Program-made: the position numbers and the translations under genes
IMG/VR virus record: IMGVR_UViG_3300022743_000112
Span: 1-28,330 of that record
Length of the DNA stretch: 28,330 nt
Direction: 5' to 3' (one strand)
Source of the DNA: a virus
In this document: one piece after another, positions 2,465 through 14,682 of the stretch
Position numbering within the stretch: the first letter of the stretch is position 1
Layout of the letters: each line of letters begins with the position of its first letter
Notes under the pieces: generated by a model
What the model saw: the letters and a program-made list of their open reading frames with translations, nothing else
Told to the model about the DNA's origin: nothing
The model's database searches: none

Positions 2465-3406
2465 ATGAAACACGTTAAATGGGTTATCGCACACGAACCT
2501 ATCGGATTATTCTTAAAAGTTGCCGAACGTTTTGCCAAAGAAGTCAATGAGAAGACCAATGGTCTTTTCAATATTGAAGTTCTAAGTCTAAGCGACTATG
2601 CGACAAAATACAATGATGGCAAAGCTGTTAGCAAGTACGACTTGATGGACTTGATCAATAGTGGCGCTATTGAAATGTCACACATCTACACAACATGGTT
2701 GGGTGACTACAATCAAGACTTACATGCTCTTGACTTGCCATTCATCTTCAAAGACCACGAACACGCTGACCGCGTACTTGAGGGTACAGTTGGACGTGAA
2801 TTGCTTGATGGCGTTAGCGCAAACAGCAATATCAAGGGTCTTGCATTCACATACAGCGGTGGTTATCGTATCGTCCCTGCAAACTTCAAAGCTGACACCG
2901 TTGACAGCTGGAAGGGTCGCAAAGTCCGCACAAGTCGCAGCCCAGTTGCAGTTGATACATTCAAATTGCTCGGCGCTGAACCAATGGAACATATCAGTCT
3001 TGAAGCCATGAACGACTACGCTGACAAAGGCGTTATTGAAGCTGGTGAAAGCACATACGTTCGTGTATTCCCGTTGAATCAACACAAGAGCTTCAAAGTT
3101 GTTAATGACACAGCCCACAGCTTGTTCTTGACTAGCATCATCGTTAACCAAGACTTCTTTGCAGAGTTTGATGCAGATGTTCAGCAAATTTTAAGTACAG
3201 CAGCATTTAATGCAGCACGTACCGAACGCCGTGAAAGCGTTGCTGATATTCCAAACATTCTTGCTGAGTGTGAAGAAAACGGTGTTGAAGTTGTCCGTAT
3301 GAGTGATGCTGAATTGGCAAAATTCAAAGCAGTGACAGCAGACGTATACGCAATGTATGACGACTATTTCACCACTGGTCTTGTAGACAACATCAAAAAC
3401 AGTTAA
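2465..3406 (+). CDS. DctP-family (TRAP) solute-binding protein without signal peptide
   Basis: The 313-residue protein has the order of features of TRAP transporter receptors: an N-terminal alpha/beta lobe, 'LDLPFIFKDHEHADRVLEG', a 'DSWKGRKVRTSRSP' segment that holds the conserved carboxylate-binding Arg, and 'LGAEPMEHISLEAMNDYADKG' matching the family's 'lGa.P......e...al..G' signature. Family members are periplasmic and bind organic acids. This copy starts directly at the first strand (MKHVKWVIAHEP) with no signal peptide, so it should stay in the cytoplasm or virion. Start ATG 2465 is supported by AAAGGAAAC just upstream. No TRAP membrane subunits are nearby. The second receptor-type gene (TctC-like) lies in the preceding operon. 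Confidence 0.75.
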   Translation: MKHVKWVIAHEPIGLFLKVAERFAKEVNEKTNGLFNIEVLSLSDYATKYNDGKAVSKYDLMDLINSGAIEMSHIYTTWLGDYNQDLHALDLPFIFKDHEHADRVLEGTVGRELLDGVSANSNIKGLAFTYSGGYRIVPANFKADTVDSWKGRKVRTSRSPVAVDTFKLLGAEPMEHISLEAMNDYADKGVIEAGESTYVRVFPLNQHKSFKVVNDTAHSLFLTSIIVNQDFFAEFDADVQQILSTAAFNAARTERRESVADIPNILAECEENGVEVVRMSDAELAKFKAVTADVYAMYDDYFTTGLVDNIKNS

Positions 3407-3466: not shown

Positions 3467-3712
3467 ATGTCAACCTCTATCTCAGAGAGAATCCCTCGCA
3501 GCCTTGCCAAAGTACTTACTTGGCGCATCATCATGATCATCCAATACTTTGCTATTGGATATTACACAACAGGCAGCATCGCATTTGGTGCAGCCCTTGC
3601 TGGTTTCACTACTATCGTGAACAGCACACTATATTTCTTGCACGAACGTGCTTGGAATTCAACAGATTGGGATCGCAAGGTCAAAGAGAAAGATGTAGAG
3701 GCAGTGGCATAA
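3467..3712 (+). CDS. DUF2061 small membrane protein
   Basis: The 81-residue product matches DUF2061 (PF09834): 'SLAKVLTWRIIMII', a hydrophobic segment with a TTGS turn, a second hydrophobic segment, and the hallmark 'LYFLHERAWN' near the C-terminus. Two transmembrane helices are predicted by eye. ATG 3467 is chosen over an upstream in-frame ATG because it has AAAGGAAAA at the right distance and because DUF2061 domains begin about here; the longer form would read through the hairpin at 3417-3441. The function of the family is unknown. The stop codon is embedded in the next late promoter. Confidence 0.8.
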   Translation: MSTSISERIPRSLAKVLTWRIIMIIQYFAIGYYTTGSIAFGAALAGFTTIVNSTLYFLHERAWNSTDWDRKVKEKDVEAVA

Positions 3713-3728
3713 ATACATTACTATGCCA
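3705..3728 (+). promoter_or_regulatory. Hairpin over the start codon of the 3723 gene, late promoter inside
   Basis: TGGCATA (3705-3711) and TATGCCA (3722-3728) pair perfectly over 7 bp around a 10-base loop. The ATG at 3723-3725 is inside the right arm. The late promoter box overlaps the left arm and loop, so RNA begun from it would lack the left arm and leave the start codon open. Confidence 0.5.
3708..3715 (+). promoter_or_regulatory. T4-type late promoter box CATAAATA
   Basis: CATAAATA lies over the stop codon of the DUF2061 gene. The expected RNA start, near 3721, is only about two bases before ATG 3723, so the late transcript would be nearly leaderless. No Shine-Dalgarno sequence is seen before ATG 3723. 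Confidence 0.6.
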
Positions 3729-4304
3729 ACAAGCCTTAAAGACATTATTGACAATACCCAAGACATTTACATGACCGACAGTGCCATTAGTACACTGTTG
3801 GACTTTGAACGTGTCATTGATGAATTAGATATCTATACATTTGACCACTGGAAACAAGGTGAACTTGTTGCAGGTCCCGAGTATGAAAAGTACTTTGTGA
3901 CCTGTACTTTCATGTGGCCCTATAAAAATAAGCCAGACACCCGTGGTGCTAAGAGATTAGCAGACTACGATTGTGTGGTCAAATACAAGCACGATGTACT
4001 AGAATATCCGATCAAGCTAAAGAGTCCAAGCGACTTTGTTCCAGGTACAAAAGTGCCAAAGATGGGTAAAGCTCCTGTATGGTTGTTGACTATTACTATC
4101 CCCAAGAAGCTGATGCAAGAAATCACACAAGGTTCTCTAGAACTTGAAAGTGAAACAGTTGATGCCGAGGACATTGATCAAAGTTATGAAACAGGTCTTG
4201 ACGACAAAATGTATCAAACTACACAAGATCAAGCTGGTGGCGCCCCAGCTCCAGCAGTGCCAGGCGCAGCTCCTGCAGCGGCCCCATTACCAGGAGGAAT
4301 CTAA
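3723..4304 (+). CDS. Phage hypothetical protein with Pro/Ala-rich tail
   Basis: The 193-residue protein is not one I can assign to a family. It is acidic and soluble: an N-terminal helical part (to about residue 40), a mixed region with 'FVTCTFMWPYKNKPD' and 'APVWLLTITIPKKLM', then a glutamate-rich linker and a low-complexity tail of Ala, Pro and Gly (about residues 165-193). It is preceded by a late promoter and a hairpin that covers its ATG, and it ends TAATG into the next gene, whose AGGAGG ribosome site lies within its last codons. The pair is therefore made together, probably late in infection. A virion or assembly role fits the timing but is an inference. Confidence 0.7.
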   Translation: MPTSLKDIIDNTQDIYMTDSAISTLLDFERVIDELDIYTFDHWKQGELVAGPEYEKYFVTCTFMWPYKNKPDTRGAKRLADYDCVVKYKHDVLEYPIKLKSPSDFVPGTKVPKMGKAPVWLLTITIPKKLMQEITQGSLELESETVDAEDIDQSYETGLDDKMYQTTQDQAGGAPAPAVPGAAPAAAPLPGGI

Positions 4305-4843
4305 TGTTACGTGAAGGTTTAGAACAAGGTGATTTGAAGCGTCTTGTACATGACGAATTGCATATTGATGAATTCAAAAGCAAGTTGGGTCGTGACGAAG
4401 ACGTTTGTGTTGTCAGTTTCAAGTGCAAGGGCAAAGAGCCAGCAAATGATCTAGTTAACTTTATTGAAAAAGGTTACAATTGGGTTATTGATGCTGACGT
4501 TAGCAGTGGTGAAATGGATGACGGTGACTATATTGTGTTCATTGAATGTGAACGTGATGCAAGTATCCCACGCAATATCATTTTGATGATGAACGAACTA
4601 TTAAACGTTACTGGGCAGAAAATTGGTCAGTGGCGAGTTCGTTACTACAAAGGCGCAGAAGAATATCCCCTAACTCTTTCTTCTCTGGAAAAGCTGATTC
4701 CAACAAACCCAACTGAATACAAGAAACGTTTCGGGGATGACGATCTTGAAGCAATGAAAGCAGCGGCTAATGTCAAGACTGACAAAAAGGCACCAAAGAA
4801 CGACTTTACCGAAAGTCTCAGAGCAGCGGCTGGTCTCATCTAA
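4304..4843 (+). CDS. Phage hypothetical protein, acidic
   Basis: The 179-residue protein has no motif of known function. Visible features are an N-terminal 'HDELHIDEFKSKLGRDEDVCVVSF' segment, a likely compact alpha/beta core with 'FIEKGYNWVIDADVSSGEMDDGDY', a 'WRVRYYKG' strand, and a Lys/Ala-rich C-terminal tail ending 'FTESLRAAAGLI'. I recall similar proteins from other T4-like phages of aquatic bacteria, always unnamed, but I cannot check this. It is translationally coupled to the upstream gene (TAATG with AGGAGG at 4292-4297). It is followed by the hairpin and late promoter that control the endolysin gene. Confidence 0.72.
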   Translation: MLREGLEQGDLKRLVHDELHIDEFKSKLGRDEDVCVVSFKCKGKEPANDLVNFIEKGYNWVIDADVSSGEMDDGDYIVFIECERDASIPRNIILMMNELLNVTGQKIGQWRVRYYKGAEEYPLTLSSLEKLIPTNPTEYKKRFGDDDLEAMKAAANVKTDKKAPKNDFTESLRAAAGLI

Positions 4844-4846
4844 CCA

Positions 4847-4887
4847 AAAATCTCCTATCTGCTAAATAACAGTAGACAGGAGATTTT
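4847..4887 (+). promoter_or_regulatory. Endolysin translational switch: hairpin hiding the ribosome site, with a late promoter in it
   Basis: AAAATCTCCT (4847-4856) pairs with AGGAGATTTT (4878-4887) over 10 bp; after one A/C mismatch, TCTGCT (4858-4863) pairs with AGTAGA (4871-4876), leaving a 7-base loop. The ribosome site AGGAG (4878-4882) is in the right arm, seven bases before ATG 4890. The late box GCTAAATA (4861-4868) sits at the tip, with an expected RNA start near 4874, past the whole left arm. Read-through RNA would hide the ribosome site; late RNA would not. T4 lysozyme gene e is known to work this way. Confidence 0.8.
4861..4868 (+). promoter_or_regulatory. T4-type late promoter box GCTAAATA
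   Basis: GCTAAATA matches the late consensus TATAAATA at six of eight positions, with the TAAATA core intact. It lies in the loop of the hairpin upstream of the endolysin gene and should start RNA near 4874, giving a leader of about 16 bases that carries AGGAG. Confidence 0.6.
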
Positions 4888-4889
4888 CA

Positions 4890-5519
4890 ATGAGCGATTT
4901 CGCACTATCATTAGACCAATTAAAAGAAATAGTACCCGGTAATCCGTATATTGAGCACTGGCATGAAGCCTTTTGCGAGATTTTACCCGATTACGATATT
5001 GACACCCCTCAACGCATTGCGGCATTCTTGGCACAATGTGCTCACGAGAGTGGTGGATTCAAAGCAATCAAAGAAAACTTAAACTACAGACCAGAAACTC
5101 TGTTGAAGTTGTTTAAGAAGTATTTTGACTTGCCAACTGCACAACATTATTGCAGTCTTCCGAACAAACAAGAAGCAATCGCAAACAGAATCTACGCTAA
5201 TCGTATGGGCAATGGCCCAGAAGAATCAGGTGATGGCTATCGTTACTGCGGTCGTGGTCTTATCCAGTTGACTGGTAAAGACAATTACACACGCTATGCA
5301 CAAAGCACAGATCAGACAGTTGAAGAAGCGTCAGAACATCTAACAACATTTGAAGGTTGTGTACAAAGTGCTGCTTGGTTCTGGGAAGCAAACAACTTAA
5401 ATCAATACGCAGACTCAGGTGATATTCTTACCATGACCAAGCGTATCAATGGCGGTACAATTGGTCTTGAAGACCGTGTCAAGCATTACAATCATGCTTG
5501 CCATGTTCTAGGAGCGTAA
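4890..5519 (+). CDS. GH19-type endolysin (chitinase-like lysozyme)
   Basis: The 209-residue protein is a compact glycoside hydrolase family 19 domain, the fold used by many phage endolysins to cut peptidoglycan. Visible signatures are 'AFLAQCAHESGGFKAI' with the catalytic Glu at residue 53, 'YRYCGRGLIQLTGKDNY' near 112, a Trp-rich 'SAAWFWEANNLNQ' segment and 'MTKRINGGTIGLEDR' near the C-terminus. The length suits a single-domain endolysin, with no cell-wall-binding domain. There is no signal peptide, so export would depend on the holin two to three genes downstream. Expression appears gated to late times by the hairpin and internal promoter just upstream. It opens the lysis cassette 4890-6870. 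Confidence 0.9.
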   Translation: MSDFALSLDQLKEIVPGNPYIEHWHEAFCEILPDYDIDTPQRIAAFLAQCAHESGGFKAIKENLNYRPETLLKLFKKYFDLPTAQHYCSLPNKQEAIANRIYANRMGNGPEESGDGYRYCGRGLIQLTGKDNYTRYAQSTDQTVEEASEHLTTFEGCVQSAAWFWEANNLNQYADSGDILTMTKRINGGTIGLEDRVKHYNHACHVLGA

Positions 5520-5521
5520 GC

Positions 5522-5983
5522 ATGTGGCTTTTGCACTTTCTTCCAGATAGTTTCATACAATTCATTGTGCATACTATCCTGTTTGCAGGTGTTGTTGGCT
5601 GCATTCTAAGTTTTTACTTTGTTAATAAGGTTCTGAGATTCTGGCCACCATTTGCGGGCTATTACAAAATGGCACAGATTGCCAGCGTTGTATTGCTTGT
5701 AAGCGGTATCTACTTTGAAGGTGGCTATAGTGCAGAGATGCAATGGCGCGAACGTGTCAAAGAAGTTGAAGCAAAAGTTGCGGCAGCAGAAGTTGAAAGC
5801 AAAGATGCCAACGATAAGTTGAACAAAGCCAAAGCAGCAAAGGTGAAAGTGATTCAAGGTAAACAGATTGTTGTTAAACAATATATTGACCGTGAAGTTA
5901 CAAAATACGATGCAACTTGCAAGATCCCAGAAGCAGTCGTCAAAGCACACAATGCTGCTGCCAAGAATGAGGAGCTGAAATGA
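5522..5983 (+). CDS. Inner-membrane spanin (Rz-like)
   Basis: The product is 153 residues from ATG 5522; a longer in-frame start inside the endolysin gene is less likely because this ATG follows the endolysin stop by two bases and a GGAGCG lies just upstream. Two hydrophobic segments (about residues 12-35 and 50-66) are followed by a long, charged Ala/Lys/Glu-rich coiled coil (about 72-125) and a tail with 'KYDATCKIPEAVV'. This is the layout of an i-spanin: membrane anchor plus periplasmic coiled coil, ending in the small 'P..vv...N' element often seen in Rz. It overlaps by ATGA a lipoprotein gene that would be its outer-membrane partner. Most i-spanins have one membrane helix; two are unusual here. 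Confidence 0.75.
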   Translation: MWLLHFLPDSFIQFIVHTILFAGVVGCILSFYFVNKVLRFWPPFAGYYKMAQIASVVLLVSGIYFEGGYSAEMQWRERVKEVEAKVAAAEVESKDANDKLNKAKAAKVKVIQGKQIVVKQYIDREVTKYDATCKIPEAVVKAHNAAAKNEELK

Positions 5984-6285
5984 ATAACGATTTCAAATGG
6001 ATGGATCGTGCATTGAGACTGATAGCTTTGTTGGCCGTTGTTTGTTTAGTCTTGTTTCTTGTTGGATGCAGTACTGTAGTACCAGTAACAGCCAAGTTCC
6101 CAGAGAAGCCACAAAACGTAGAAGCATGTCCTCAACTTGAGACTGTGCCAAACGATGTTAAGTTAAGCGGTCTTACTGCTACAACCACAAAGAACTATAG
6201 CTCATACTATGAGTGTGCTGTTAAAGTTGATACGTGGAACGAGTGGTACGAAAAACAAAAAAGAATATTCGAAAATATAAAATAA
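5980..6285 (+). CDS. Outer-membrane spanin lipoprotein (Rz1-like)
   Basis: The 101-residue protein has an N-terminal basic region, a hydrophobic helix and a lipobox LVGC with the modified Cys at about residue 30, so it should become an outer-membrane lipoprotein. The mature part starts with 'STVVPVTAKFPEKP', has a Cys in 'EACPQLETVP' and another in 'YYECAVKVDTWNEWYEKQK', and lacks a long Pro-rich stretch. With the i-spanin immediately upstream (ATGA overlap) it should join inner and outer membrane and break the outer membrane after the endolysin has acted. The ribosome site is AGGAGCTGA, repeated almost exactly before the next gene. Confidence 0.78.
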   Translation: MNNDFKWMDRALRLIALLAVVCLVLFLVGCSTVVPVTAKFPEKPQNVEACPQLETVPNDVKLSGLTATTTKNYSSYYECAVKVDTWNEWYEKQKRIFENIK

Positions 6286-6294
6286 GGAGCTGAG

Positions 6295-6870
6295 ATGAGT
6301 CAAGGAAAAGAAAAGAAAAACAGTGATTGGATGCAACAACTATGGCGTCCAATGATGGGTTGGATGTATATGTTAATCTGTACACTAGACATGGCAATTT
6401 TTCCAGTGCTATGGTCTTTGTTACAAGCAGTACAACACCAACAAATTACACAATGGAATCCGTTGACCCTTCAGGGTGCGGGCCTATTCCACATTGCAAT
6501 GGGTGCAGTGTTGGGTATTAGTGCGTTTGGTCGTACACAAGAAAAGTTGGCTGGTACTGCTGCCAACCCAACAGCAACAGTCACGACTACAAATTCAAAC
6601 ACAGGAGGTGGAAATGGTAACTCCAATGGATTTGGCGGGTCGTCAGGCTTTGGCTCTCCGTCAGCAGGAGGATTCGGCAGCTCGCCGAGTGGATTCGGTG
6701 CACCAGCATCAAGTGGCTTTGGCGGAGGCGGGTTTGGAAGCTCATCTACGCCAGCAGCAACAAGCGGCTTTGGTGGCAGTTCAAGTTTTGGAGCAACAGC
6801 GACTCCAGCGCTAACAGCAAGTGGTAAGAAAATCGTCCCAGATGATCCGAACGCTTTCCCATTACAATAA
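6295..6870 (+). CDS. Holin-like membrane protein with Phe-Gly-rich tail
   Basis: The N-terminal ~80 residues hold two to three membrane segments: 'LWRPMMGWMYMLICTLDMAI' with 'FPVLWSLLQAV', and 'GAGLFHIAMGAVLGISAFGR' followed by a Gln-Glu-Lys. The 'RP...W' start and 'LfHiaMGAVLGisA..R.QEK' end resemble the 'holin of 3 TMs' family. It closes the lysis cassette. From about residue 100 to 175 the protein becomes a low-complexity tract of Gly, Ser, Ala and Phe with about ten GFG or SFG units, then ends 'KKIVPDDPNAFPLQ'. That tail is not a usual holin part. It may be a flexible cytoplasmic or periplasmic domain. The ribosome site AGGAG at 6285-6289 supports the start. Confidence 0.72.
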   Translation: MSQGKEKKNSDWMQQLWRPMMGWMYMLICTLDMAIFPVLWSLLQAVQHQQITQWNPLTLQGAGLFHIAMGAVLGISAFGRTQEKLAGTAANPTATVTTTNSNTGGGNGNSNGFGGSSGFGSPSAGGFGSSPSGFGAPASSGFGGGGFGSSSTPAATSGFGGSSSFGATATPALTASGKKIVPDDPNAFPLQ

Positions 6871-7139: not shown

Positions 7140-7412
7140 ATGAAAGTTTCTATTTCGTTAGACAAAGACTCTATCAAATTGGGCCAACCTGTGACTATCA
7201 CGTATAGCGCACAAGGCTTCATGGATACTCAACTAACTATCCCAAACATCCCTGTGATTGATTTGGGTAGCGGTGATCAAAGTGGTACTATCAAAGTAAT
7301 ACCAATGATGGATGGAGATTTCCAAGTTTCTATCAGCGGTAACGGTGATGCTCGTATTGGCAGTGACAGTACTTGTGTAGTCACTGAGTCAGCTACGTGT
7401 AGTGTAACTTAA
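7140..7412 (+). CDS. Small Ig-like beta-sandwich protein
   Basis: The 90-residue protein has alternating strands and turns typical of a single Ig-like or bacterial beta-sandwich domain: 'SISLDKDSIKLGQPVTITYS', an aromatic-poor core, 'SGTIKVIPMMDGDFQVSISG' and a final 'STCVVTESATCSVT' with two cysteines. No signal peptide is present. The start overlaps by one base the space after the upstream stop (TGATATG), suggesting coupling. Ig-like domains are common on phage virion surfaces, where they bind host glycans weakly; this role is an inference. Its stop codon overlaps, on the opposite strand, the stop of the BKACE gene. Confidence 0.65.
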   Translation: MKVSISLDKDSIKLGQPVTITYSAQGFMDTQLTIPNIPVIDLGSGDQSGTIKVIPMMDGDFQVSISGNGDARIGSDSTCVVTESATCSVT

Positions 7413-8269
7413 AGACCAAGAATCGCCCGAGCTTCTGCGGGAGTTGCGGGTTCATTGCCCAAGTCACGAACAATACGCACAGCCTTTTCAACAAGCTGTG
7501 CGTTTGTTTTTGCCAGCTCACCCTTACTCAAGTAGATATTGTCTTCAAGACCCACACGAGCATGTCCGCCACTGATTGTACTCAGTGCGACAAAGGGCAT
7601 TTCCATTGCACCAATACCAAATGCATACCATGTTGCGTCTCTGGGCAACATTTGTTTAGCATACTCAAGCGTTGCGGGTGTTGCACTCCACCCCCATTTC
7701 ACTCCTGTAGCAATTTGCCACAAAGGGTCCCCTTTGATTGTGCCTTCACTGATTAGCATCTTGGCAATCTCAAGATCACCGCTGTCAAAGATTTCAAGTT
7801 CTGGCTTGACTCCCACTGCTTGCACAGCTATGGCCATAGCACGAGCAGTATCAATAGTATTTACCGTAATATTTTGCGGACCACGATTCATAGTATTCAA
7901 GTCAAGACTACAGATATCTGGCTTAAGTGTAACAATGTGTTCTACACGTTTTGCTGGGCTTTGAAATGCATAGCTTGGCTTGCCGAATATCACGCTTGAA
8001 TGCCCTGTTGCCCCGGGACCAGTGGTCAGGTTGATAAGAACTTCGGTATTACGATCTTTGATTCTGTCAACAACTTCTTTGTACAAATCAATGTTCATGC
8101 TTGGCTTGGCAGATTCTGGATCACGAACATGTATATGCACTACCGCTGCGCCCGCAGCAGCAGCTTCCAATGCACTGTTTGCAATCTGTTCGGGGGTTAC
8201 TGGCAAGTAAGGAGTTTGATCAACTGTAGTACCAGCACCAGTTACTGCACAAGTCAAAATAGTTTTCAT
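7409..8269 (-). CDS. BKACE-family beta-keto acid cleavage enzyme (DUF849)
   Basis: The 286-residue protein is a full-length member of the BKACE/Kce family, zinc TIM-barrel enzymes that take a beta-keto acid plus acetyl-CoA to acetoacetate plus a new CoA ester. Visible family marks are the start 'KTILTCAVTGAGTT', zinc ligands His45 and His47 in 'VVHIHVRDP', 'LINLTTGPG', 'LDLNTMNRG', 'KPELEIFDSGDL' and 'SGGHARVGLEDNIY', where Glu242 would be the third ligand. All appear intact, so the enzyme is probably active. It is the last gene of a three-gene minus-strand operon and overlaps the dehydrogenase by ATGA. The substrate cannot be told from the sequence; carnitine- and lysine-related keto acids are known substrates in the family. 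Confidence 0.88.
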   Translation of the reverse strand: MKTILTCAVTGAGTTVDQTPYLPVTPEQIANSALEAAAAGAAVVHIHVRDPESAKPSMNIDLYKEVVDRIKDRNTEVLINLTTGPGATGHSSVIFGKPSYAFQSPAKRVEHIVTLKPDICSLDLNTMNRGPQNITVNTIDTARAMAIAVQAVGVKPELEIFDSGDLEIAKMLISEGTIKGDPLWQIATGVKWGWSATPATLEYAKQMLPRDATWYAFGIGAMEMPFVALSTISGGHARVGLEDNIYLSKGELAKTNAQLVEKAVRIVRDLGNEPATPAEARAILGL

Positions 8270-8982
8270 ATTGAGCGCCCACCATCAACTGGGACAATTG
8301 TTCCGTTTATAAATTTGTTGTTGATCATACTAACTACAACCCCCACAATGTCTGCGGGACTTGCTACACGTTTCAACGGAGTGGTTGAAACGACTACTTC
8401 TCTAAGATCACTACTTGAATTAGATGAGTCAATGAACCCTGGAGCCACTGCTACCACCCGAGTCTTGGGTGCCATGACCAATGCTAGGTTTCGGGTAAGA
8501 CTATCCACCCCTGCTTTGGCAGCAGCATAGGCCAGATTACTTCCACCTCTACGGAATGCGGACGCAGAACTAATATTGACAATCACAGAGTCGTCGTTGA
8601 GATGTGGGTTAAACGTCTTGATTGTAGCAAACACTGCACGTAATTGTACCGAAACTACTTTGTCAAACACATCGTCTGCTAGTTCAGCAAAATTATCATG
8701 TTGTATGTGTTTTGTCCATCCCGCACAGTTCACAAGAACGTCGATACCACTAAATTCACTGACTATCAAACTTCTGGCTTTTTCTAACTCTACAGAGTCA
8801 GTGATATCACAGGATATTGCAAGTTTTGCATCTGTTTCTAATGCATCCATTTTTTGCGAATGGAATGTAGATTCCGCAGACCTGCTTAATACTACTACAG
8901 CGTAATCCATTTTTGCAAGTTCTTGAGAGACTGCGTACCCTAGATTACCAAATCCGCCGACAACTACTGCAACCTTTTTCAT
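8266..8982 (-). CDS. Short-chain dehydrogenase/reductase (SDR)
   Basis: The 238-residue protein is a classical SDR. The cofactor loop is GGFGNLG (residues 9-15), a variant of TGxxxGxG; 'VNCAG' near 84 is the NAG motif; Ser138/139, Tyr152 and Lys156 (in 'NLAYAAAKAG') form the catalytic set; 'APGFIDS' and 'NGTIVPVDGGRSI' are typical C-terminal marks. Such enzymes oxidise a hydroxyl or reduce a ketone using NAD(P)H. It overlaps both neighbours by ATGA, between an acid:CoA ligase and BKACE. In that setting it could make or reduce the beta-keto group. It is related to FabG-type 3-ketoacyl reductases, but I cannot state the direction or substrate. Confidence 0.88.
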   Translation of the reverse strand: MKKVAVVVGGFGNLGYAVSQELAKMDYAVVVLSRSAESTFHSQKMDALETDAKLAISCDITDSVELEKARSLIVSEFSGIDVLVNCAGWTKHIQHDNFAELADDVFDKVVSVQLRAVFATIKTFNPHLNDDSVIVNISSASAFRRGGSNLAYAAAKAGVDSLTRNLALVMAPKTRVVAVAPGFIDSSNSSSDLREVVVSTTPLKRVASPADIVGVVVSMINNKFINGTIVPVDGGRSI

Positions 8983-13791: not shown

Positions 13792-14476
13792 TCTCAACAG
13801 CAACATCAAGCACGAGACTACCAAGAAGCAATACTACAGTCGCTACTTGTGGCGACTGGTGTATAAAATCAAGAAAGTATGTTTGGCCAGTGACAAGCAT
13901 GTTTCTGATGTATCTGCTTATGTAAAGGCCAAACAAGAAGATGCTCAACGTTGGGCTGATCGTGCGTTTAATACTCATAGACTGCAGGAATGGTCAGAGG
14001 TTGATGCTGAGTTGCTTGACCATGTGCGCACTGTGATGAACAACTTCAAAGATACCATGAAGTTTCGGTGTGAATGGAATACCATGCAGATTTATGCCGA
14101 GACCGAAGAAGATTTGAAGCGTGTGGCTGCGGTAATCTCACATGACCAAGATATAGTCATTATCAATAGTCCTATTGCAGGCACAGAAGATGCGCTGCGC
14201 AATGGGGTAGTGTACATGAACAAGATCGATTACAAGTACAAGATTATTTTGCGTGATGGTAATTATGACACACAGACCAAACAAAGTATTCTGAATCAAT
14301 TACTACAACGTGACGATGTAAAAATCCCAAGCAATCTTTATAGAGAACTTGGTAAAAAATACCCTGCATTATGGGGCGCATACTTTTACACCAATGATGA
14401 TAGCATCGTGACCATTTTGAGTTTGATTAGTCCTGGATTGGTTGGAAAAATTCACCCCATAGACCACCTCCAATAA
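13769..14476 (+). CDS. Phage hypothetical protein
   Basis: The 235-residue protein overlaps the end of the ClpA-like gene by 23 bases. It is soluble, with a basic N-terminal helical part ('KKQYYSRYLWRLVYKIKKV'), a central helical region, an 'IVIINSPIAG' strand, and a C-terminal part 'YKYKIILRDGNYDTQTKQ' and 'GAYFYTNDDSIVTILSLISP' that ends 'GLVGKIHPI'. I recall similar C-terminal segments from unnamed proteins of T4-like phages, but no function. The last bases hold CCTCC and the late promoter that regulate the next small gene. Confidence 0.72.
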   Translation: MDSLYWANLNSNIKHETTKKQYYSRYLWRLVYKIKKVCLASDKHVSDVSAYVKAKQEDAQRWADRAFNTHRLQEWSEVDAELLDHVRTVMNNFKDTMKFRCEWNTMQIYAETEEDLKRVAAVISHDQDIVIINSPIAGTEDALRNGVVYMNKIDYKYKIILRDGNYDTQTKQSILNQLLQRDDVKIPSNLYRELGKKYPALWGAYFYTNDDSIVTILSLISPGLVGKIHPIDHLQ

Positions 14477-14500
14477 ATAGTAGTATATTATGCAAGGAGG
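14467..14500 (+). promoter_or_regulatory. Late promoter between CCTCC and the GGAGG ribosome site
   Basis: CCTCC (14467-14471) is exactly complementary to GGAGG (14496-14500), the ribosome site of the next gene, with 24 bases between. The late box lies in that loop, so only read-through RNA would carry the anti-ribosome-site arm. The stem is short (5 bp) and the loop long, so this is weaker than the endolysin case. Confidence 0.35.
14472..14479 (+). promoter_or_regulatory. T4-type late promoter box AATAAATA
   Basis: AATAAATA matches the late consensus at seven of eight positions and contains the stop codon of the upstream gene. The RNA start is expected near 14485, leaving a 20-base leader with a perfect AAGGAGG. 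Confidence 0.55.
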
Positions 14501-14505
14501 CCAAC

Positions 14506-14682
14506 ATGGCACGTATTCAAGAAGAAGTGATTGTTATCACTGTTAGCAAATTACACAAAGCCGCAGACATTGACACTGCACCAGACACCGACATTGTTGG
14601 TGAGGAAACTATTGCAGCCTTAACACAGGTTGCCGAAGAGTTACTGGGTTCTGGTGTAGTGGTTGAAATCAATAAAGCATAA
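14506..14682 (+). CDS. Small acidic phage protein
   Basis: The 58-residue frame begins MARIQEEVIVITVSKLHKAA and ends 'GSGVVVEINKA'. It has a likely strand-helix-strand layout: 'VIVITVSKL', an acidic linker 'DIDTAPDTDIVGEE', a helix 'IAALTQVAEELL' and 'VVVEIN'. It has the strongest ribosome site in the window, AAGGAGG at 14494-14500, and its own late promoter, so it is probably made in quantity late in infection. That would suit a small structural or assembly protein. I do not recognise the family. Confidence 0.75.
   Translation: MARIQEEVIVITVSKLHKAADIDTAPDTDIVGEETIAALTQVAEELLGSGVVVEINKA

Follow-up and report, generated by a model that had tools for sequence, protein, structure and literature searches.

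A Shine–Dalgarno-hiding hairpin with an internal late-type promoter box precedes a GH19 endolysin gene and other late genes of T4-like jumbo phages

The endolysin locus and its leader hairpin

The sequence analysed here (the window) is a fragment of 28,330 nucleotides from an uncultured virus, positions 1 to 28,330 of IMG/VR record IMGVR_UViG_3300022743_000112. On its plus strand, an upstream late box that we term P1 (3710–3715) is followed by two virion structural genes (3723–4304, phrog_12928; 4304–4843, phrog_13138) and then by a lysis cassette, the first gene of which encodes a 209-amino-acid endolysin (4890–5519). An earlier note on this DNA had assigned the endolysin to family GH19, and profile matches bore this out (PF00182, E = 8e-7; phrog_181 endolysin, E = 1.5e-73). 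Spanin-like and holin-like genes follow: one for a small protein with spanin-like relatives (5522–5983, phrog_4952), whose homologue in relative L006 also matches the Rz-like phrog_312, then an Rz-like spanin candidate (5980–6285, phrog_456, E = 5e-7) and a holin candidate (6295–6870, phrog_3427 and PF11351). A megablast search of the region against named phages returned no matches. Host-like metabolic genes are found elsewhere in the window, at 2465–3406 on the plus strand and 7409–8982 on the minus strand, encoding a DctP-type solute-binding protein, a beta-keto acid cleavage enzyme and a FabG-like reductase.

The interval between the stop codon of the upstream virion gene (4841–4843) and the endolysin ATG at 4890 holds a hairpin, described in the earlier note as a near-perfect 16-bp structure that locks the ribosome site. 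Folding agreed with this description. The left (5') arm (4847–4863) and right (3') arm (4871–4887) form 16 bp, with 4847–4856 pairing with 4878–4887 and 4858–4863 with 4871–4876 around a loop at 4864–4870, interrupted by one A·C mismatch (A4857/C4877), for a folding energy of −18.8 kcal/mol. The Shine–Dalgarno sequence (SD) AGGAG, at 4878–4882 on the plus strand, lies within the right arm. The surrounding region (4820–4920) has a fold z-score of −4.95, with 0 of 200 shuffles equally stable, and none of 100 shuffles of the left arm matched the observed strength of the lock.

Access to the SD depended on where the RNA begins. A folding scan gave an SD opening cost of about 13–14 kcal/mol when the RNA 5' end was placed at or before 4847, and of 0.8 kcal/mol when it was placed at or after 4856; the SD is thus paired in RNA containing the left arm, as in a T4-type lock. 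The folding of long versus short RNA, a check proposed in the earlier note, came out as expected there (13–14 versus 0.8 kcal/mol). Opening cost superseded our first accessibility measure, mean unpaired probability, which blurred the lock because its SD window took in the mismatch. Run on T4 as a positive control, the same scan placed gene e first (14.6 to 0.2 kcal/mol), with I-TevII and I-TevI completing the top three, and also recovered gene 49; the scan is validated by its recovery of these documented locks.

The late-type box and the upstream late box

A TAAATA box (4863–4868, plus strand) sits at the tip of the hairpin, where the earlier note had placed it, with its first T base-paired in the stem. 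The 8-mer at the box is GCTAAATA, not TATAAATA, though in two relatives GCTAAATA ranks with the most frequent forms. TAAATA was not over-represented in the window (13 copies versus 16 expected), and its copies are concentrated outside genes: 11 of the 13 are non-coding (0.6 expected), and every one of the nine plus-strand copies falls at a gene junction. Two relatives of complete size showed the same bias: in one, 83 of 202 copies are non-coding where 24 would be expected, and in the other 110 of 253, where the expectation is 27. The TAA stop codon of the upstream gene supplies the first three bases of six of the nine plus-strand boxes in the window (2404, 3710, 11492, 14474, 17974 and 25143).

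The complete relatives are jumbo phages of 320–374 kb. A gp55-like late sigma factor was found in three of the four large relatives searched (G001, G002 and G004, E = 1e-73 to 1e-81; not found in G003), and is also encoded by PA5oct, RaK2, Phosso and Atu_ph07. Predicted ATAAATA late promoters and a gp55-like sigma are described for the RaK2-like phage CBB (PMC5259590). By analogy with T4 late-promoter geometry (box end plus 6), we propose that the box is used as a promoter with a transcription start at 4874, which would give a 16-nucleotide leader. As judged from sequence and fold, the promoter is positioned such that late RNA would lose the left arm and free the SD.

The P1 box lies about 1.1 kb upstream of the endolysin gene, ahead of the two virion genes, and syntenic relatives, locked and unlocked alike, keep this box at about −1.1 kb. 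It is a likely source of read-through RNA, and its conservation means that such RNA need not be exclusively early and may include late transcripts. P1 itself falls within a hairpin (GGCATA...TATGCC, 3710–3728, plus strand) whose right arm contains the ATG at 3723; with a start near 3721, late RNA from P1 would be almost leaderless, and the AUG opening cost is 7.8 versus 0.4.

Arm co-evolution and the same lock on other late genes

To follow the lock through relatives, we searched for the box and SD context with the left arm not required, which yielded 67 loci. Among these, the left arm was complementary in all ten endolysins at least 84% identical, and was absent from most non-endolysin genes that share this SD context. 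In the ten aligned sequences, the position adjoining AGGAG varies among A, C and T, with a matching U, G or A opposite it. Covariation in MAFFT columns covers the outer stem only because loop lengths differ, and alignment-free arm-swap tests were therefore used. In nine endolysins, right arms paired with their own left arms at −15.2 kcal/mol versus −10.7 kcal/mol with swapped arms, and 0 of 5,000 permutations did as well, which supports the expectation in the earlier note of paired changes in both arms. Structure is therefore kept through compensatory change, as in a T4-type lock. Two control segments outside the hairpin gave a null result. The endolysin set alone had no sense-strand excess of G-U pairs (7 versus 8).

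The lock is present in L082, whose endolysin is just 48% identical, and five syntenic relatives (L085, L087, L089, L090 and L096) have neither box nor hairpin, so the lock is dispensable. A promoter kept without its stem was the pattern named in the earlier note as contrary to its proposal; this was seen in part, in L003, L088, L105 and L132, where the box is kept and the stem is weak or displaced. The L003 endolysin is 86% identical overall, but its N-terminus and leader differ. A different stem (GGGTA...TACCC) lies between the box and the endolysin AUG in L077, L078 and L242, covering the AUG; part of its left arm would be lost from late-started RNA.

The lock was also found on genes unrelated to lysis. 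When left-arm shuffles were applied to the box genes of G001 (354 kb) and G002 (374 kb), 7 of 74 passed the 1% level, with 0.7 expected. Two of the genes concerned were followed through relatives: a head-tail adaptor gene (phrog_211) was locked in the majority of 48 distinct loci, and a gene for an SprT-like protease, assigned by a PF10263 match slightly below cut-off, in eight of nine distinct box-bearing loci. Own arms again outperformed swapped ones, at −16.8 versus −8.9 kcal/mol for the adaptor (n = 48) and −20.0 versus −12.6 kcal/mol for SprT (n = 9), with 0 of 5,000 permutations as good for either. Left-arm identity within the adaptor set falls to 0.05, and the arm-swap effect was kept when the sets were thinned to dissimilar arms (39 of 5,000 for five endolysins). 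G-U pairs were more frequent in sense RNA than in the opposite strand in the adaptor (66 versus 40) and SprT (13 versus 4) sets, a bias that points to selection on the sense RNA. PA5oct, Phosso and Atu_ph07 each carry a single strong lock, that of PA5oct at 135,020. Across seven genomes, strong locks were only modestly enriched at box genes relative to genes that have no box (pooled odds ratio 1.8, with G001 the sole genome to reach significance by itself), so most late genes are unlocked. Within the window, the box at 14474 lies in the loop of a CCTCC...GGAGG hairpin (14470–14510, plus strand). This hairpin precedes a 58-amino-acid ORF at 14506 and forms a weaker lock (5.0 versus 2.6).

An endolysin-only switch is ruled out by this genome-wide scan. 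The earlier note had called the device a lysis timer, a label that does not fit, given that the same lock precedes non-lysis late genes and that a late box is conserved upstream at P1. Its presence on several unrelated late genes of the lineage indicates a general read-through silencer rather than a lysis-specific timer.

Probable read-through silencing and its alternatives

We propose that the lock acts on translation, is released through promoter choice and silences read-through RNA from upstream, a reading to which we give a probability of roughly three in four. The computed hairpin, its dependence on the RNA 5' end, the co-evolution of its arms, the junction bias of the box and the late sigma of relatives all point this way. 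Following this logic, RNA entering from upstream would fold at 4847–4887, hiding the SD and leaving the endolysin untranslated. A gp55-type late polymerase would initiate at TAAATA in the hairpin tip, and the resulting RNA, lacking the left arm, would present a free SD for endolysin translation. The benefit would be the silencing of read-through from upstream promoters, whether early, middle or those of the late P1 unit. Early-versus-late timing may be its purpose; general silencing of read-through is the likely role, and late read-through from P1 must be silenced as well.

Gene arrangement bears on where the silenced RNA originates. Locked genes have a co-directional upstream neighbour more often than unlocked box genes (30 of 32 versus 103 of 146, p = 0.006). 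At the endolysin locus, the gene before P1 is co-directional in eight of nine locked loci versus one of five distinct unlocked loci (p = 0.02, from small numbers and with kinship ignored), the gene just before the P1 unit being usually on the opposite strand in unlocked relatives. This fits silencing of RNA from farther upstream. It also counts against the most serious alternative, in which the lock chiefly keeps lysis-cassette expression independent of the P1 structural transcript, so that a separate box at the hairpin (P2) sets late output and early-to-late timing plays no part. That P1 stands at the same distance in locked and unlocked relatives, and that virion proteins are encoded upstream, would suit such an insulation of dosage, but relatives without the lock cope with an endolysin translated from P1 RNA; we regard it as a possible though rather unlikely explanation.

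The hairpin might instead be shut on idle RNA and opened by ribosomes finishing the upstream structural gene, so that endolysin output tracks translation of that gene. The left arm starts only 3 nt after the upstream stop codon, and a ribosome footprint reaching 4853 brings the 13.7 needed to open the SD down to 4.9, or to 0.6 if it reaches 4855. However, the gap between the stop and the SD complement varies from 6 to 16 nt in relatives, and coupling does not explain the late box, a feature that every locked relative retains at the hairpin tip, so we consider this valve improbable. We think it more doubtful still that the hairpin serves as an intrinsic terminator or 3'-end protector of the upstream virion genes, sharing space with the next promoter by economy. 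Its A-rich and U-rich flanks (AAAAATCTCC...GGAGATTTTC) resemble a two-way terminator and such a stem would hinder 3' exonucleases, but terminator prediction did not call it, the right arm has at least five U at only a minority of loci (endolysin, 2 of 9; adaptor, 11 of 48; SprT, 3 of 9), and the AGGAGNTTTTCAATG context is frequent before late genes that have no hairpin. We reject termination as the main role, a GC-rich stem with a conserved U run not being found. Least probable, to the point of being very hard to credit, is an inverted repeat acting in the DNA, as an operator or cruciform at the late promoter with no role in RNA: the box does coincide with the centre of the repeat, but the arms, unlike those of an operator, vary freely in sequence yet remain complementary, and two of the three sets have the sense-strand G-U excess.

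Read-through silencing, our preferred reading, has precedents in T4. The leader lock of T4 gene e, for lysozyme (McPheeters et al. 1986, reviewed in PMC3014915), likewise places a late promoter within an SD-hiding hairpin ahead of a lysis enzyme. The earlier note had equated the two devices, and their energetics agree closely (14.6 to 0.2 kcal/mol in T4 versus 13.9 to 0.4 kcal/mol here). In contrast to gene e, the enzyme here is of family GH19 and not a T4-type lysozyme or a gene e homologue, the box is at the loop, the virion genes upstream have their own late box, and the phage belongs to a jumbo lineage tied to RaK2, PA5oct and Atu_ph07 through structural proteins. Locks are also documented for T4 soc, 49, I-TevI, I-TevII, I-TevIII and segB and for Aeh1 mobE (PMC3014915, PMC2988022). 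In these, as here, late genes sit in longer units, the SD is hidden in read-through RNA and a late promoter drops the left arm; the genes and lineage differ, with head-tail adaptor and SprT-like genes locked here across many relatives. The suggestion of a second, independent example of a lysis timer is unsupported in that form, because this lineage locks non-lysis genes just as T4 locks soc, 49 and I-TevI. By its computable features, the endolysin lock is a further instance of the translational lock known from T4 e, soc, 49 and I-TevI, although the phage lineage is a different one and the enzyme family is unrelated.

A similar arrangement occurs in cultured Vibrio phages (L493:300–365 and L498:500–565). 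The GH19 endolysin genes of Va1, SRILMA and phiTY18 combine a late-type box with a lock on the SD (11.0 to 2.1 kcal/mol); SRILMA and phiTY18 both have the stem, the comparison resting on two near-identical sequences, and a gp55-like sigma was found in a cultured Vibrio phage bearing this lock. Unlike the hairpin here, the Va1-type lock resembles T4 e in placing the box within its left arm, and the endolysins are only 44% identical to ours. The pairing of GH19 with a lock is thus not confined to this jumbo lineage. No comparable lock was seen for the distant GH19 endolysins of XacN1, PhiW-14, Mel-JY01 and MW202675 (LR756500, with an ambiguous start codon, was left unscored). The endolysin gene of Microcystis phage Mel-JY01 (L497:240–340) has a strong hairpin just upstream, with the SD free (opening cost 0.2). 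CBB and GAP32, RaK2-like jumbo relatives with an ATAAATA motif, resemble the phages studied here in a predicted T4-like late promoter and a gp55-like sigma; the passages of PMC5259590 consulted mention no hairpin or translational lock. We found no report of locks of this kind in jumbo phages in the open-access papers searched.

More tentatively, the lock could be a widespread cis-code in T4-like jumbo phages, by which chosen late genes (for lysis, the head-tail adaptor and an SprT-like protease) would ignore any RNA from upstream, even late polycistronic RNA, each taking its dosage from its own promoter instead of from the operon. The lock known from T4 e is not peculiar to T4: it recurs on a different family of lysis enzyme and on morphogenesis genes of jumbo phages, where compensatory change is strong. 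An SD hairpin that encloses a late box offers a sequence signature for late genes that need silence on upstream RNA, and cultured relatives, PA5oct among them, make the reason for locking these genes open to test.
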